Virus record (IMG/VR): IMGVR_UViG_3300030202_000190
Coordinates: 1-23,502 of that record
Origin: a virus
DNA length: 23,502 nucleotides
Direction: 5' to 3' (one strand)
Below the pieces are notes generated by a model that made no database searches, had not been told where the DNA came from, and was given only the letters and a program-made list of their open reading frames with translations. Below are positions 1,856 to 19,026 of this stretch, piece after piece; positions within the stretch are counted from its first letter, which is position 1; every line of letters begins with the position of its first letter. The position numbers were made by a program, and so were the translations under genes.

Positions 1856-2480
1856 TATCTAATGTTGATTTCTGTTGTATGTTGAAGCTTCTGTTGCTAC
1901 CAGTATGATCTAGATAAAAATAGCCACCTGCGTAACCATCACCATCATAAGTAACTGTGTTATCAGATCCATCAATATCCATATAGTTTGTCGCTAGATC
2001 TACGTCTATTGCGGCAGTTATTGAGTTACTAGATCCGTTAATGATCCAGTCTAGATCTAACGTACTCGCTTGTGCGGCCATAGCGTGATTGAGAGTAAAC
2101 GTATTACTGTTACCTGTTGCCTGGACATTTACGTTACTGCCGTCTGCGCTATACGTATTGGTTTCGTCTGTACTCATGTTGAACGTATTACTATTGCCAT
2201 CAAATACAAAGTTACCTGTGTAATTATCCGCCCATATATCGCCTAAGAACTTGTTACTGTCTCCTATCATGTCTAGGTTAAGGTTCATAACCGTGCCGTC
2301 TAGATCTAAGGCCGTCATACTACCTGCGGCCGCATCTGCGCCACCGATAATATTGCCAGATCCTAATTGCTCAAAATCAAAGTTAGAGTTAGAAGATCCT
2401 GAACTTTGATCTATAAAGATCTCATTATCTGCGGCATATAAAGGCGCAGACAATAAGAGTAATAAAAATAATTTTTTCAT
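1767..2480 (-). CDS. Curlin-like (CsgA/CsgB-type) secreted repeat protein
   Basis: A 237-residue exported protein with a clear signal peptide (residues 1-16, ending LYA). The mature part carries repeated Gly-x-x-Asn motifs near residues 28, 73, 95, 123, 149, 171, 194 and 218, roughly every 22-28 residues, close to the curlin unit of about 22. Flanking strands alternate hydrophobic and polar residues, and the first unit (NEIFIDQ, then FDFEQLGSGN) is very like curlin. The repeats are richer in Asp and Thr than E. coli CsgA. Two cysteines occur near the end (225, 237). The ATG overlaps the csgG stop (TAATG). It is the likely substrate of the CsgG/CsgF pore. Amyloid formation is an inference, as is whether it acts as the CsgA or the CsgB equivalent. 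Confidence 0.75.
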   Translation of the reverse strand: MKKLFLLLLLSAPLYAADNEIFIDQSSGSSNSNFDFEQLGSGNIIGGADAAAGSMTALDLDGTVMNLNLDMIGDSNKFLGDIWADNYTGNFVFDGNSNTFNMSTDETNTYSADGSNVNVQATGNSNTFTLNHAMAAQASTLDLDWIINGSSNSITAAIDVDLATNYMDIDGSDNTVTYDGDGYAGGYFYLDHTGSNRSFNIQQKSTLDNDWLKIISVGSNSSTFCVIQNDQGTSTGC

Positions 2481-3262
2481 TATTTATACCTCCAATAATT
2501 ATTGTTTACACCCTCTTTGATCGTTTCTAAAACTGCTGTTTCTATAGCTATTTGTAATGCAATGCTCATAGGTTCATTTGCTACAGATCCACCTTCTATT
2601 TCTACTAATTCTGTGCCTTCGCTTATAAATCTAAATACATCGTTATCCAGGGAAGCTGAGAATACTGATTTAGTAACTAGAACTTCTGTTAGGATCCTGC
2701 CTGTACTTACGGACACAGTGCGTAGGCTTACTGTTATTTGATCTTTTCTAACCTTACGGCTTGCGCCTAAACCTAAATACCTGGCACCCATACCTGCGCT
2801 TTCTGTTTTGTCATAACTTAAAACGCCACCAGTCATAACCATATCGCCGAATTTAAGCGGCATAAGCTTTTGATCTTCGTCAAATGTTTCCCTGGTAGAT
2901 CTAATTAACTGCCTTTCTTTAGTTACTGCGTCTAATGACACTCTTTCTACTACGTCAAAAAAGTTAGAGTGCTTGAGTGCGCGTATTAGGTAGGCGTGTG
3001 GTGCCTGGGTAACTGCTGTACTAAATGTAGCGTATTTAGAATTAGATCTTCTTTGTCCTGTAAGATCCTGAAACTCATAAACCGCTATGACAGGCTTTCT
3101 TTCTGGTTCTGCTACGTCTTTTAGATCTGTATGTAACGTTTGCATTACAGCATTTTCTAAATACTCAACTGGCGGTAAGTTGTTTTGTATTGGATCTAGC
3201 ATTAGCGTACAACTAGAAAGTAAAACCGCCGATAGGAACGACAACAATCGTTTCTGTTCCAT
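2480..3262 (-). CDS. csgG: CsgG homologue, outer-membrane curli secretion pore lipoprotein
   Basis: Homologue of the nonameric outer-membrane lipoprotein that exports curli subunits. From the chosen start (MEQKRLL) it has 260 residues, with a short lipoprotein signal ending in LLSSC, so Cys18 would be lipidated. Blocks matching E. coli CsgG follow in order: VYEFQDLTGQ, FSTAV, a LIRALKHSNFF segment, GARYLGLGA, VSLRTVSVSTGRIL, VFRFI and SNEPMSIALQIAIETAV. The Phe preceding STAV (E. coli F56, at the channel constriction) is kept, while Asn55 appears as Thr. A start 33 bases upstream (3295) is possible but would put residues before a normal signal. It overlaps csgF by 50 bases and is joined to the curlin gene by TAATG. 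Confidence 0.92.
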   Translation of the reverse strand: MEQKRLLSFLSAVLLSSCTLMLDPIQNNLPPVEYLENAVMQTLHTDLKDVAEPERKPVIAVYEFQDLTGQRRSNSKYATFSTAVTQAPHAYLIRALKHSNFFDVVERVSLDAVTKERQLIRSTRETFDEDQKLMPLKFGDMVMTGGVLSYDKTESAGMGARYLGLGASRKVRKDQITVSLRTVSVSTGRILTEVLVTKSVFSASLDNDVFRFISEGTELVEIEGGSVANEPMSIALQIAIETAVLETIKEGVNNNYWRYK

Positions 3263-3680
3263 CTTCAGAAATGATAGTAACTCTAACTTCATCATCTGTT
3301 ATCTCATATTCAATAGTATTGCCGTCTAATTCCATAGATCCGCTTTTGTTAGGATTTTCACCAAACAAAGCATCTTCTACTTGCCTGGCAATGTTGGCAT
3401 AGATCCTGGAAGTAAGGTTTCTCATAAACCTAGCTTCTACAGTATTATTTTTTTCTCTTTCTATTTCGTCTTGCAGGGCTTTTATTTCGTCTGCTATGGC
3501 TTCACGCCTGCTAGTTTCTTGCGAGTCAATAGTTAAGTAATGACTTGATGTATTTACACCACTAAAAGAAGGTGACTTAAATTCATGCACCATTTCATCT
3601 GCTTGGATCTGCTGAACTACGACCACAAATAAGACTGCTACTAAACCTAAGATAACAATTAAATGATCGTAGTTTTGCAT
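3213..3680 (-). CDS. csgF: CsgF homologue, curli secretion channel partner
   Basis: A 155-residue exported protein: residues 1-27 form a strongly hydrophobic signal peptide ending in IQA. The mature N-terminus contains EFKSPSFSG (residues 33-41), matching the E. coli CsgF FQFRNPNFGG segment that threads into the CsgG channel and couples secretion to nucleation. A charged helical stretch follows (about 55-80). Then comes a C-terminal half matching CsgF in layout: an NLTSRIYANIARQ-like helix, a turn with Gly-x-Met, and three strands ending VVVPIGGF. The helical stretch is longer than in E. coli. It is joined upstream by TAATG and runs 50 bases into csgG. Assignment is by recognisable motifs, not by a search. 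Confidence 0.85.
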   Translation of the reverse strand: MQNYDHLIVILGLVAVLFVVVVQQIQADEMVHEFKSPSFSGVNTSSHYLTIDSQETSRREAIADEIKALQDEIEREKNNTVEARFMRNLTSRIYANIARQVEDALFGENPNKSGSMELDGNTIEYEITDDEVRVTIISEDGTETIVVVPIGGFTF

Positions 3681-4036
3681 TAGTCGCGCCTTACATCGCC
3701 CCTGGTAGGATCTGTCTTAGATATTTTGTTTTGTTCTATAAGATTGGGCAGGCCTAAGATTGTCTTGATCATAGTGTCCTGCCTCAAAATTTCATTGTCG
3801 AGGCTACGAATTCTGTCGATGAGTGCAACCAGGATCCCATGCTGTGCGTCTAGTTTAGATCCTAAACGTTCTTCTATGTTGTCCAGGCTTTCTTGTACCT
3901 TGTCATCTACCGTGTCCAGGCGTTCTGATAGGTTATCTACAATCTTAAATACTAATTTATATACAAAGAATCCTACGGCTATTAGTGCGGCCGTTGGTAC
4001 GCCCAATTCTGACACTAATAAAACAGCTTCATCCAT
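3680..4036 (-). CDS. Membrane-anchored coiled-coil protein, unknown role
   Basis: 118 residues with one N-terminal hydrophobic segment (about 12-31, PTAALIAVGFFVYKLVF). A long charged helix follows (35-90) with heptad-like spacing of Leu/Ile/Val, and then a polar, basic tail. The layout (short periplasmic end, one membrane span, coiled coil) is seen in some holin-like and spanin-like phage proteins, but I recognise no family with confidence. It is coupled on both sides by TAATG, to the nuclease upstream and csgF downstream, so it is made together with the curli proteins. It may be an accessory lysis protein or an anchor for the curli pore; neither is shown by sequence. Confidence 0.6.
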   Translation of the reverse strand: MDEAVLLVSELGVPTAALIAVGFFVYKLVFKIVDNLSERLDTVDDKVQESLDNIEERLGSKLDAQHGILVALIDRIRSLDNEILRQDTMIKTILGLPNLIEQNKISKTDPTRGDVRRD

Positions 4037-4455
4037 TAATCAGGTTTAAATATATTTAGATCTATAAGTTTTTGGCGGTTAGCCAGGTGTTCTTTTTCTA
4101 CGTCTTTCTTTGATTGCCCAAAATAGTCTACTGCTAAATGGTTGTCTATCAATGCTTGGTTTATGTTTACGCCGTCAACCCAGATAGTGCCTAAGACTCT
4201 GCCAAACTTACCTCTAGAATCTTTTAACTCAGTTTTTATAACAATTTTTTTGCCGTTTTCTATAGAGTCTTTTAAAAAATCTTTAGCCAGTAATCCTCTA
4301 GCTTTTTCGTCAAGGTTTCTAGTGCGGCTTTCAGGGGTATCAATAGCAAATAGCCTGACAGAAGAACTAAAGTGAATATCAAAACCAAGAGATATACGAC
4401 AGACCAAAGAATCTCCATCAATGACTCTTTCAACTTCGCAAGCATATTCATACAT
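4036..4455 (-). CDS. Staphylococcal nuclease-like (thermonuclease) protein
   Basis: A 139-residue single SNase domain, a calcium-dependent nuclease fold cutting DNA and RNA. Key residues are all present, numbered from MYEYACEV: Asp15 in VIDGDS, Arg34 in VRL, Asp39-Thr40-x-Glu42 in AIDTPE, and Arg86 in KFGRV. They match D21, R35, D40, T41, E43 and R87 of the S. aureus enzyme. The ATG at 4455 was chosen because it shares bases with the upstream stop (TAATG) and the fold begins at once; the reading frame is open 18 codons further upstream. No signal peptide is visible, so it probably acts in the cytoplasm, for example on host DNA. Its place inside a curli cassette is unusual. Confidence 0.88.
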   Translation of the reverse strand: MYEYACEVERVIDGDSLVCRISLGFDIHFSSSVRLFAIDTPESRTRNLDEKARGLLAKDFLKDSIENGKKIVIKTELKDSRGKFGRVLGTIWVDGVNINQALIDNHLAVDYFGQSKKDVEKEHLANRQKLIDLNIFKPD

Positions 4456-4637
4456 TAGATATACCTGGAAGCGAGCAGGGTAGTGATGATGAGTGGGTAG
4501 ATCCCCCACATAATAGTTTCTAGTCTTTTAAATTTTGCAGATCCTTCGTCTAATCTGTCTTCGATGTATTTGAAGCGTATAGAGTTTTCACGCTGATACG
4601 CTTCTAGTGTAGTGATTGTGTCAGTTTGGTTTTCCAT
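4455..4637 (-). CDS. XhlA-like small membrane protein, possible lysis helper
   Basis: 60 residues: a polar, helical N-terminal part (about 5-40) with heptad-like hydrophobic spacing, then a C-terminal hydrophobic segment (about 43-57, IMWGIYPLIITTLLA) with a short basic end. This coiled-coil plus C-terminal membrane anchor layout is that of XhlA-type haemolysin/holin partners, but similarity is structural only. ATG at 4637 is preferred over an adjacent TTG one codon upstream. It overlaps the preceding gene by 17 bases and shares bases with the nuclease start (TAATG). Confidence 0.55.
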   Translation of the reverse strand: MENQTDTITTLEAYQRENSIRFKYIEDRLDEGSAKFKRLETIMWGIYPLIITTLLASRYI

Positions 4638-16400: not shown

Positions 16401-17702
16401 TTAAACAGTGATGTCCTTAATCGCCGCGAAAGCGTTAGGGATTCTCACAGCAACATCAACATCCTGGAAGAACGCGATTCTAGTTCCACCAGAAGTGCTT
16501 AATGTTGAACTATCAACAACAACGTCAACACCTGACCAGAAGCCCATCATTACTTGTGCAAAGTCACCCAAGATGAGTGCATGACAAGATCCTGAAGTAG
16601 ATCCTTTGGTTAGTGTGCTAGGAACGTTAGTTGAAACAGTTACATTGTGTCCTAAGATAGAATTGCTATCGTTAAGGATGAAGTTACCTTCTACACCTGA
16701 AGACTGTCTAGGTATTTGTCTCATCGCACCCTGTACGCCAGGAGTAGTTGCGAAATTCAAAGTACCAGTTAGAGCATTGTCCGCCGCAATAGCCGCTTCC
16801 ATGTCTACAATCTTCGCGTAAGTAACAGCACCACCGTTAGTGCCAATGGCAACAACGTTAGTGTCAGACTCTTGCAAGATACCTGAAGGCTCATTAGATC
16901 CACCGCCATTTAGAGCAACCTGGTCTATTTTAGAAGCCATAGTTTGAACTACGTCATTTCTTAGTATTTGCTCAACAGAAGGATCTGATTGCAATGCTAG
17001 TTTTCTTGTGTAGTCAACGTATGTAGCTAAAGTCTTAGGTGCCATTGTGACTTGTGCGAAAGTTGCCGCGCCTTCACTTGGTGCAGATCCTTCAGCAACA
17101 AAAGCAGTATTAGTTACAGATGCAGAAAGCTTTGGAATCGCTATATCACCTTGTAAACCAGTCATAACTCTGCCGCCTAATTGTGCAACAACTGAGTTAG
17201 CATAGACTTCACCGATGAACTCATTCGCCAGGTGATCTGTTCCCTTTAAGAAACCACCTTGTGAGTTAGTTCCAACAGTTTGATCCCTTTGCCCCCAACC
17301 TATGTCCATAGGTAGGTAGAAACCTCTAGCTTCTTTACCAGTTCTAGCGGCGATTTCATTAGAAATCTCTCTTTCTAGTCCTGCATTTGACCAGTCACCG
17401 CTAGATGCCGCTCTAATCGCGTTCAAGAAAGAATAACTGCTTCTTTCTCTGTCGTTTAGTCCAACTTCTGCTACTGGTGTTTCAAGTGGCTTATCGTCTG
17501 CTATTTGATTAAGAAGGATCCCTCTAAATTGCTCTAAAGAATGTCCTTCCGCTATTGATACATCAGCTAAATCACGTTTGTTGTGTTTAGTAGCTAATGC
17601 AAGTATTTCCTTTGCTTCTTTAGCAACTTCAGATCTAACGCTTACAGCAGTTTCAGATCTAACAGCTTCTAAATCAACTTCTGGAGTTTTATTTTCTTCC
17701 AT
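16401..17702 (-). CDS. Major capsid protein made from an internal start
   Basis: The HK97-fold capsid part of the fused ORF, 433 residues if started at the internal ATG at 17702 (residue 400 of the fusion). AAGGA lies 7 bases before this ATG. The first part (MEENKTPEVDLEAVRSETAV, continuing as a charged helix) is a scaffold-like delta domain. The mature shell domain then runs from about fusion residue 530 (GFLKGTDHLANEF, GLQGDIAIPKLS, FAQVTMAPKTLATYVDYTRKL, SDPSVEQILRND, LNGGGSNEPSGIL, LGDFAQVMMGFWSGVD). Length fits HK97 gp5 (385 aa). The protein probably exists both alone and as part of longer forms. Confidence 0.75.
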   Translation of the reverse strand: MEENKTPEVDLEAVRSETAVSVRSEVAKEAKEILALATKHNKRDLADVSIAEGHSLEQFRGILLNQIADDKPLETPVAEVGLNDRERSSYSFLNAIRAASSGDWSNAGLEREISNEIAARTGKEARGFYLPMDIGWGQRDQTVGTNSQGGFLKGTDHLANEFIGEVYANSVVAQLGGRVMTGLQGDIAIPKLSASVTNTAFVAEGSAPSEGAATFAQVTMAPKTLATYVDYTRKLALQSDPSVEQILRNDVVQTMASKIDQVALNGGGSNEPSGILQESDTNVVAIGTNGGAVTYAKIVDMEAAIAADNALTGTLNFATTPGVQGAMRQIPRQSSGVEGNFILNDSNSILGHNVTVSTNVPSTLTKGSTSGSCHALILGDFAQVMMGFWSGVDVVVDSSTLSTSGGTRIAFFQDVDVAVRIPNAFAAIKDITV

Positions 17703-18392
17703 TTTCTTTTCCTTAATAGAATTGTTTATCTCTACAGGGGCTTCCACCTCTGCGCTATCTTTTGACCTGGCAACACCAACCATAGGGTTTGTGTCAGCAG
17801 GTAATGAAACCAGGCTTGCTTCCATAGGAGTCCAACTGGCTCTATAGGTCGTATCTTCAGCAGACTCATCCCTTACCATAGAGTTGATTCTGTAGCCGAC
17901 ACTGACTGAACGCTTAATACCATCCAAAACATCGTTCCAGGTTTCTTGTGCTAGTTCGCTTCTTCCAAAGCGCACCGTTGCCAATGTCCTATTGGTAGCA
18001 CCGTCTAAATTAAAATCCTCAACAATACCTACTTGCCTAGTCGTATCATGGTCTAGTAAAACAGGCATATTGCCGCTTCTCGCCCAAGTCATATCAACTG
18101 ACTCAGGGGAATGGTCTAGCACCTCCATTCCAAAACTACGTTCCACAGGTTCCTCAGAAGAAAGAGCAATGCGGACAGTTCTTTTGTCCTCATTAATCAT
18201 TTCTGCCCTGGATAGATCAATGGAGCGGTAGTTAGTTTCGTCTTTATCAAAACGCTTTTCTTCGTCTTCATCATCGCCGTATGAATTAGATTCAATTTCC
18301 TGGACAACTTCAGCTTTTGCAAACTTTACGTTGTAAGAATCTTCGTCTTCCTCAACAGCTAAGATATGACGACCTTCCGTTCTTTCATCCAT
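16401..18392 (-). CDS. Protease-capsid form from an internal start
   Basis: Second in-frame internal start of the same ORF: ATG at 18392 (fusion residue 170, MDERTEGRHILAV), preceded by AAGGAG with a 6-base spacer. It would give a 663-residue protease-capsid protein without the N-terminal domain. Both internal sites are stronger than average for this genome, so three lengths of product are predicted. This is a site prediction; no product is shown. Confidence 0.5.
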   Translation of the reverse strand: MDERTEGRHILAVEEDEDSYNVKFAKAEVVQEIESNSYGDDEDEEKRFDKDETNYRSIDLSRAEMINEDKRTVRIALSSEEPVERSFGMEVLDHSPESVDMTWARSGNMPVLLDHDTTRQVGIVEDFNLDGATNRTLATVRFGRSELAQETWNDVLDGIKRSVSVGYRINSMVRDESAEDTTYRASWTPMEASLVSLPADTNPMVGVARSKDSAEVEAPVEINNSIKEKKMEENKTPEVDLEAVRSETAVSVRSEVAKEAKEILALATKHNKRDLADVSIAEGHSLEQFRGILLNQIADDKPLETPVAEVGLNDRERSSYSFLNAIRAASSGDWSNAGLEREISNEIAARTGKEARGFYLPMDIGWGQRDQTVGTNSQGGFLKGTDHLANEFIGEVYANSVVAQLGGRVMTGLQGDIAIPKLSASVTNTAFVAEGSAPSEGAATFAQVTMAPKTLATYVDYTRKLALQSDPSVEQILRNDVVQTMASKIDQVALNGGGSNEPSGILQESDTNVVAIGTNGGAVTYAKIVDMEAAIAADNALTGTLNFATTPGVQGAMRQIPRQSSGVEGNFILNDSNSILGHNVTVSTNVPSTLTKGSTSGSCHALILGDFAQVMMGFWSGVDVVVDSSTLSTSGGTRIAFFQDVDVAVRIPNAFAAIKDITV

Positions 18393-18899
18393 ATCTGTCT
18401 CCTTGGATTTAAGTTTTAAATTTGAGCCGTTAGGCTCGCTTTCTATAGATTCCTCTATAAAAACTGTTTCACCTCTATCAGCTAACTTACGTTTAAGCTC
18501 ATTGATGATTTTTTTCATACCGCCTGTACCTAGTTTGGGATTGACTACACCCCATTTCATTAGAGCTACAATGCCTGCAACATTAGATACGTTAGGCTCT
18601 TTGTCTGTATCTACAAAAGCATTGCCATCATTAACACTGTGTCTTGCCGCCCATGCTTCGCGTTCCTTGATCCAATCTAAAACGCCTTGTGTTTCAGATC
18701 CTTGCCTGGCTTTACCCCATAATGTGAAGGCATCACTGCCCCTTATGTTGCCGCCTGCGCTCCAGATCTTCTTGTGATTGTTTTTAAGATCTAAAACATA
18801 TTCATAATCAAACTGTTTGTATTTAGAATTACGCAAACTAATCTTCTGATCGTCACCAGATTCAGGAAAATTAGTTTCTCTGTGGTCTAATTCAGACAC
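16401..18899 (-). CDS. Prohead protease-major capsid fusion (HK97 type)
   Basis: 832 residues starting GTG with AAGGGG about six bases upstream. Residues 30-145 form a phage-head-associated helical domain (KIWSAGGN, GVLDWIKEREAWAARH, NVAGIVALMKWGVVNP), then an acidic linker. Residues about 225-380 form a U35-type serine protease: SSEEPVERSFGMEVLDHSPE, His284 in LLDHDTT, a likely nucleophile Ser333 in RSVSVGYRI, and PMEASLVSLPAD. Residues 400-832 are the capsid. The protease should cut the delta domain and itself after assembly. Fusion of protease and shell is known in some phages, but usually two genes are seen. It overlaps the small membrane gene upstream by 8 bases. Confidence 0.88.
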   Translation of the reverse strand: MSELDHRETNFPESGDDQKISLRNSKYKQFDYEYVLDLKNNHKKIWSAGGNIRGSDAFTLWGKARQGSETQGVLDWIKEREAWAARHSVNDGNAFVDTDKEPNVSNVAGIVALMKWGVVNPKLGTGGMKKIINELKRKLADRGETVFIEESIESEPNGSNLKLKSKETDMDERTEGRHILAVEEDEDSYNVKFAKAEVVQEIESNSYGDDEDEEKRFDKDETNYRSIDLSRAEMINEDKRTVRIALSSEEPVERSFGMEVLDHSPESVDMTWARSGNMPVLLDHDTTRQVGIVEDFNLDGATNRTLATVRFGRSELAQETWNDVLDGIKRSVSVGYRINSMVRDESAEDTTYRASWTPMEASLVSLPADTNPMVGVARSKDSAEVEAPVEINNSIKEKKMEENKTPEVDLEAVRSETAVSVRSEVAKEAKEILALATKHNKRDLADVSIAEGHSLEQFRGILLNQIADDKPLETPVAEVGLNDRERSSYSFLNAIRAASSGDWSNAGLEREISNEIAARTGKEARGFYLPMDIGWGQRDQTVGTNSQGGFLKGTDHLANEFIGEVYANSVVAQLGGRVMTGLQGDIAIPKLSASVTNTAFVAEGSAPSEGAATFAQVTMAPKTLATYVDYTRKLALQSDPSVEQILRNDVVQTMASKIDQVALNGGGSNEPSGILQESDTNVVAIGTNGGAVTYAKIVDMEAAIAADNALTGTLNFATTPGVQGAMRQIPRQSSGVEGNFILNDSNSILGHNVTVSTNVPSTLTKGSTSGSCHALILGDFAQVMMGFWSGVDVVVDSSTLSTSGGTRIAFFQDVDVAVRIPNAFAAIKDITV

Positions 18900-19026
18900 T
18901 TTTTACCCCTTGCAGAACAGCAAAAACCCTTAGTCCTAAAGAAAACAAGGCGACAGAGAGTGCGCCCAACGCCTGTATTTTGCTCATCATTTGTAATAAA
19001 TGATCCCACCTCAACTGCTTAATCAT
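18892..19026 (-). CDS. 44-residue membrane protein between portal and protease
   Basis: Starts at ATG 19026, overlapping the portal stop (ATGATTAA), and ends 8 bases inside the protease-capsid gene. A single hydrophobic segment lies at about 18-40 (ALGALSVALFSLGLRVFAVL), with a basic N-terminal side. Longer readings to 19074 only overlap the portal. Both junctions suggest coupled translation, which supports it being real. No family recognised. Confidence 0.55.
   Translation of the reverse strand: MIKQLRWDHLLQMMSKIQALGALSVALFSLGLRVFAVLQGVKSV

Follow-up and report, generated by a model that had tools for sequence, protein, structure and literature searches.

Two nested in-frame starts, conserved across a family of fused phage protease-capsid genes, would supply protease-bearing and plain capsid chains

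Introduction

In phage lambda, the protease gene C contains an internal in-frame start from which the scaffold protein Nu3 is made. A gene of comparable design is found at positions 16401-18899, on the minus strand, of the viral record IMGVR_UViG_3300030202_000190 (a 23.5-kb phage contig; positions 1 to 23,502, referred to as the window), in which an HK97-type prohead protease, a scaffold (delta) domain and a major capsid protein share a single unbroken frame of 832 codons with GTG as the first. The likeness to C/Nu3 consists of one reading frame, an internal start, products with a common C-terminus, a protease in the larger chain and an assembly protein that would also be made alone; as in C/Nu3, the internal in-frame start codon has a ribosome site and is conserved in relatives. 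In lambda and Mu, however, it is the scaffold that is nested, the capsid protein having a gene of its own, according to the part of the MD8 study that cites Shaw and Murialdo 1980 (PMC8508860), whereas the putative nested product of the window gene comprises both scaffold and capsid, and a second nested start is present at the protease.

The same kinds of protein occur in the same order in HK97 (protease gp4, capsid gp5), with the scaffold as the N-terminal domain of the capsid protein and a shell of 415 subunits, but there protease and capsid protein each have their own gene, and a procapsid holds about 60 proteases (PMC12749128), whereas the window has one open reading frame (ORF). As the capsid proteins and proteases per particle number 415 and about 60 in HK97 and 540 and about 90 in D3 (PMC12749128), the protease is expected to be in the minority. 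Protease-capsid fusions are known from thaumarchaeal proviruses (PMC6563490) and from Pseudomonas phage MD8 (PMC8508860). The MD8 gp5 gene also combines protease, scaffold and capsid; its protease aligns to that of lambda gene C (PMC8508860), whereas the protease of the window is probably of S78 type, and MD8 is a single case. The phrog_617 family comprises the fused protease-major head proteins of phiHAP-1, VP882, ECO1230-10 and R4C relatives. The major capsid gene of Dinoroseobacter phage R4C (vBDshSR4C_006) belongs to the same fused family as the window gene and has a linker start, ATG189, with the ribosome site CGGAGGA; its mature T=7 shell of 415 subunits has been solved (8GTA; PMC10276861), but it has no N-terminal extension of the kind seen in the window.

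Protease, fusion and internal start are not discussed in the R4C paper (PMC10276861), an internal start is not mentioned in the text of the MD8 paper (PMC8508860), and the roseophage papers on the nearest cultured relatives treat the gene simply as major capsid protein (PMC12629253, PMC10276861). No account of internal starts in the phrog_617-type fused family turned up in the literature searched, outside of which lay the bulk of the subscription papers, the Gifsy-2 work among them. Effantin et al. in 2010 reportedly described a "tripartite capsid gene" in Gifsy-2. Internal starts and protease-capsid fusions are each known; in the literature searched, we found no description of their combination throughout this family, with nested initiation in a protease-capsid fusion, a second nested site and conservation of both. 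Here we present comparative evidence that the window gene is probably nested, its three starts sharing a frame and the resulting chains a C-terminus, and that it would supply a minority of protease-bearing chains together with plain capsid chains.

Results

Two candidate internal starts in the window gene

A first-pass annotation had singled out two internal in-frame ATGs with good Shine-Dalgarno sequences (SD) in the fused gene. Both were found again, at residues 170 (M170) and 400 (M400), the positions that it quoted, 18392 and 17702, being those of the ATGs (Table 1). The gene has 19 internal ATGs in frame; ranked by anti-SD pairing energy, M170 comes first (-8.5 kcal/mol) and M400 third (-6.1 kcal/mol). 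An AlphaFold model was built from a 51-sequence alignment (mean pLDDT, the predicted local distance difference test score, 65, and good over the domains). In this model, a beta-rich domain (222-377) is followed by a disordered linker (378-409), helices from residue 410 and an HK97 fold in the C-terminal third; pLDDT is below 50 at residues 378-417, and residues 142-221, surrounding M170, are likewise predicted to be disordered. Both internal starts are therefore located in predicted-disordered segments between domains. The annotation had also placed M400 at the N-terminus of the capsid with its delta domain, and the model agrees, the ATG falling in the linker and the first scaffold helix beginning 10 residues further on. 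The outer start position carries a GTG or an ATG with an SD in close relatives. Predicted folding energy over 60 nt is -10.5 kcal/mol at the GTG, -5.9 at M170 and -3.6 at M400, so that predicted accessibility rises inward. M531, a possible third internal start, was discarded: its SD (-6.5 kcal/mol) is poorly spaced (10) and it lies inside the scaffold/capsid boundary.

Upon synonymous permutation of the window gene, the value of M170 was reached in 12.6% of trials and that of M400 in 24%. Because the SD statistics of the window alone were at chance level, the counting of SDs in a single genome was dropped in favor of a comparison with relatives. An initial search found 29 close viral loci; wider sampling of named phages, viral contigs and one genome per bacterial or archaeal species gave 205 usable fused loci, from phages and prophages of many proteobacterial groups, cyanobacteria and others. 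Removal of near-duplicates left 142 lineages, and a stricter set contained 72 strongly diverged lineages. The equivalent of M400 was fixed as the last ATG in the linker, a choice that weakens the signal and does not inflate it (in R4C, locus L045, it is the other linker ATG that has the SD CGGAGGA). The control was a synonymous recoding in which the same residues were encoded with the codons of the gene itself.

The linker start is conserved at the RNA level

The linker between the VGxGR motif of the protease and the scaffold domain is hypervariable, with a median length of 43 residues in the 205 loci. An in-frame ATG is present in the linker of 204 of them, and an ATG, GTG or TTG in all 205. 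Of the columns between R378 and I432 in the 51-sequence alignment, M400 alone is kept in at least 90% of the sequences. The mean SD energy at M400 equivalents in the 142 lineages is -6.15 kcal/mol. Other internal ATGs of these genes (n = 1735) average -2.22 kcal/mol (p = 6e-57), and synonymous recoding gives -4.13 kcal/mol at the M400 equivalents (p = 2e-18); in the 72 strongly diverged lineages, the comparison with recoding gives p = 1e-9. The residues that encode the SD differ (KE, EE, ED/LED, RSD, RG/IRG) and the SDs occupy all three codon frames (87, 13 and 9 cases), indicating that the RNA signal is conserved and the protein sequence is not.

The predicted structure of the mRNA was affected in the same region. 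Immediately before the M400 equivalent, where the mRNA is least structured, folding energy over 39 nt reaches -3.3 kcal/mol, up from about -8. Compared to synonymously recoded sequences, the mRNA is less structured at -18 nt (p = 7e-6) and more structured 90 nt downstream. Open mRNA at the site followed by structured mRNA downstream, as predicted here, is the usual signature of a translation start that is used. A peak of predicted structure (-10.3 kcal/mol per 39 nt) is also present family-wide about 60 nt upstream of the M400 equivalents; it does not exceed that of synonymous recoding and probably follows from the codons of the VGxGR motif.

The putative protease start and the N-terminal extensions

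The first 140 or so residues of the window protein form a module that is missing in many close relatives (L010-L028 group), in which a leader of about 30 residues precedes the M170 equivalent; the gene of L026 starts close to that equivalent. At least 100 residues are found upstream of the protease core in 38 of 135 lineages, and some distant relatives have longer, different extensions. In two relatives without extension (L092 and L172), the gene begins at the position equivalent to M170. Directly behind the extension, many lineages share the motif RH(I/V)xx(V/I)xET, which in the window reads MDERTEGRHILAVEED. All 28 deduplicated extension-bearing lineages with this motif have an in-frame ATG (once GTG) 2-21 residues ahead of it. 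The mean SD energy at these M170 equivalents is -6.2 kcal/mol compared to -4.3 kcal/mol upon recoding (p = 1.6e-5), and it is -5 kcal/mol or lower in 89% of them.

Loss of the SDs in close relatives would, according to the first-pass annotation, have argued against internal initiation, and it had looked to related fusions for conservation of the two sites. Both SDs survive: AAGGA is retained at M400 in 26 of 27 readable close loci, L026 having GGAA, and all close relatives that can be read at M170 have a GGAG or GGAA core there, also those in which the encoded K has given way to E or T. Conservation extends to the whole family, with selection at the level of codons. Combined, these comparisons indicate that both internal starts and their SDs are conserved family-wide under selection acting on the RNA.

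Searches of the window extension with Pfam and PHROG profiles gave no match of weight. Extension types vary by lineage and include a WALWGG type, a PNEHAARL type and, in CRP-811, a Hva1_TUDOR domain (PF11160) (window 18393-18899, minus strand; loci L031-L033, L121 and L185); it is as if extension modules had been exchanged in front of the M170 start. In Roseobacter phage CRP-823 (L049), the extension (1528-2244) and the protease-capsid part (2204-4456) are two overlapping coding sequences, both annotated as major capsid protein; relative to CRP-821, this pair is split by a frameshift, real or due to sequencing.

Domains, genomic context and distant fusions

The profile of the fused family, phrog_617 ("major head protein"), matches the window protein over both protease and capsid (residues 217-831; E = 1e-126). 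Its C-terminal domain is an HK97-fold major capsid protein: PF05065 (HK97-fold capsid family) matches residues 556-828 (E = 2e-34), and the best-matching solved structure is 8GTA, the R4C capsid present in 415 copies (Foldseek E = 2.9e-19; template modeling score on the target 0.71). The Peptidase_S78 profile PF04586 is below cut-off in the window gene (E = 0.042) and above it in CRP-821 and CRP-811 (2e-7). Features of the gene are listed in Table 1.

Table 1. Positions of the domains and start sites of the fused gene in the window.
Feature	Position	Strand	Remarks
Fused gene: N-terminal extension, HK97-type prohead protease, scaffold (delta) domain, major capsid protein	16401..18899	-	832 aa; PF05065 and phrog_617 matches
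Outer start GTG	18897..18899	-	SD AAGGGG at 18906-18911; anti-SD energy -7.7 kcal/mol
N-terminal extension, residues 1-169	18393..18899	-	First ~140 residues missing in many close relatives (L010-L028 group)
SD AAGGAG of internal start M170	18399..18404	-	Sequence; kept in relatives
Internal start ATG, residue 170	18390..18392	-	SD spacing 6 nt; predicted protease-capsid chain 663 aa, 71.5 kDa
Prohead protease domain (S78-like beta fold), residues 222-377	17769..18236	-	AlphaFold model; PF04586 in relatives
Hypervariable, predicted-disordered linker with the second internal start, residues 378-409	17673..17768	-	pLDDT; alignment
SD AAGGA of internal start M400	17710..17714	-	Sequence; kept in relatives
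Internal start ATG, residue 400	17700..17702	-	SD spacing 7 nt; predicted capsid precursor 433 aa, 45.5 kDa
Helical scaffold (delta) domain and cleavage region, residues 410-546	17262..17672	-	AlphaFold helices; missing from modelled mature R4C capsid chain
Mature HK97-fold capsid protein, about residues 548-832 (cleavage point approximate)	16404..17258	-	Foldseek and profile match to 8GTA

Morphogenesis genes on the minus strand of the window follow the standard order: terminase, head-tail joining homologue, portal, protease-capsid, head closure, tail terminator, tail and tape measure. Between portal and protease-capsid genes lies a small ORF of about 44 aa (MIKQLRWDHLLQMMSKIQALGALSVALFSLGLRVFAVLQGVKSV; 18892-19026, minus strand), which looks hydrophobic. 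As its stop overlaps with the codons just after the GTG start, translation of the two may be coupled.

Relatives with split genes were sought in order to date the fusion; a split protease/capsid gene was found in 0 of the 205 recovered loci. With phrog_10 as a control, no usable loci were obtained. In the nearest split case examined, Cellulophaga phage phi39:1, protease and capsid genes are separate and without SD, which is uninformative. Among more distant fusions, MD8 (L213, 4371-6452) has an in-frame ATG at codon 220, past the protease region, with the SD CAGGAG (-6.9). A Helicobacter prophage fusion (L212, 1767-3422) has an in-frame ATG at codon 187, past the protease domain, with a good SD (-8.5). 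These two sites hint that the nested solution may have arisen more than once.

Discussion

According to the nested-start reading, initiation would occur at three positions of one frame. The outer GTG would give a chain of N-terminal extension, protease, scaffold and capsid (90.5 kDa), M170 a chain of protease, scaffold and capsid (71.5 kDa), and M400 a chain of scaffold and capsid (45.5 kDa) equivalent to the normal HK97 gp5 precursor. The chains would co-assemble through their common capsid domain, so that a minority of subunits would carry the protease, and rarely the N-terminal module, into the procapsid; the protease would then cleave linkers and scaffold domains, and the final shell would consist of capsid alone, in subunits of about 29 kDa. 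Processing of the fused product has been shown for the relative R4C, whose shell chain (8GTA) corresponds to residues 362-629 of the 629-residue fused ORF, and by analogy the protease is predicted to act on the capsid precursor of the window. We infer initiation at the internal starts, the ratio of few proteases to many capsid proteins, the relative amounts of the chains, their co-assembly and the self-cleavage. In the 28 paired lineages, the SD of the capsid start is stronger than that of the protease start (mean -7.6 vs -6.2 kcal/mol); these means and the accessibility gradient agree with an output that rises inward, and neither is a measure of output.

Several observations weigh against this interpretation. 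Firstly, at least two internal ATGs as strong as M400 are present in 62% of synonymous permutations of the window gene, which taken alone is at chance level. Secondly, SD pairing energy in the window is weakest at M400 (-6.1 kcal/mol, compared to -7.7 at the GTG and -8.5 at M170); as M400 does not have the strongest SD of the three, the proposed ratio is not derivable from the SDs, and SD energy was rejected as a gauge of the product ratio. Thirdly, in relatives without the 140-residue module, the gene begins just 30 or so residues before M170 and the product of that start would be barely shorter than the full-length chain. Furthermore, the dip in mRNA structure at M170 equivalents is present but not significant with respect to recoding (p about 0.2, n = 28), and the lineages share ancestry, so that the tests are not wholly independent. 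Finally, a few lineages have a linker ATG without SD, including cyanophages S-LBS1, S-CBS1 and S-CBS3 and a Synechococcus prophage; in the cyanobacterial members L036, L042, L048 and L193, a G-poor stretch lies upstream of the linker ATG. Cyanobacteria rely less on SDs, and the linker ATGs of these members would for this reason be SD-independent starts.

Could M400 be the sole source of a separate product, with M170 a weak or silent remnant of the original start of the protease gene, left after in-frame fusion of an upstream module? M400 is supported by 142 lineages and M170 by 28, the significant mRNA-structure signal is limited to M400, close relatives without the module start about 30 aa before M170, and in two relatives the gene begins at its position. 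A silent relic would however be expected to lose its SD, yet the SD is kept in the 28 lineages with their differing extensions (at or below -5 kcal/mol in 89%), codon choice prefers it over synonymous recoding, and GGAG or GGAA is retained in close relatives despite residue changes. We therefore regard a relic at M170 as unlikely.

A plain fusion, in which full-length chains alone are made with one protease per subunit, proteolysis removes protease and scaffold, and SD-like motifs result from Lys/Glu-rich linkers, would account for the chance-level motifs of the window and for the fact that KE and EE pairs make up just over half of the SD-like sites; the fused product of R4C is clearly processed. 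But SDs are preferred by codon choice at fixed protein sequence and occur in all codon frames, the Met is kept where no other linker residue is, mRNA structure is below that of synonymous recoding, and with a protease on each capsid subunit (1:1) the load would be some seven times as high as in HK97 (PMC12749128), which makes a plain fusion highly improbable. That the conserved linker Met is a self-cleavage site of the protease and not a start codon deserves almost no credence, for although the Met is nearly invariant and the protease-scaffold linker is a natural release point, the residues flanking it are not conserved (KKM-EEN, VTM-TDK, DPM-TEE, RSM-EPT) while the RNA signals 5-10 nt upstream are.

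Nested initiation at M400 and M170 offers a concrete answer to the question of how a fused protease-capsid gene keeps its protease in the minority, and extends the principle of lambda C/Nu3 from the scaffold to the capsid protein. We are evenly divided on the broader proposal that, throughout the family, the protease:capsid ratio is solved by two nested starts and three C-coterminal chains, with unrelated N-terminal modules, swapped between lineages, reaching procapsids as rare tails on capsid subunits. In widespread marine and other phages, the annotation "major capsid protein" would hide two probable products and misstate the mass and the start of the capsid precursor. A simple sequence rule, a linker ATG with an SD, may serve for the correct annotation and expression of such capsids.

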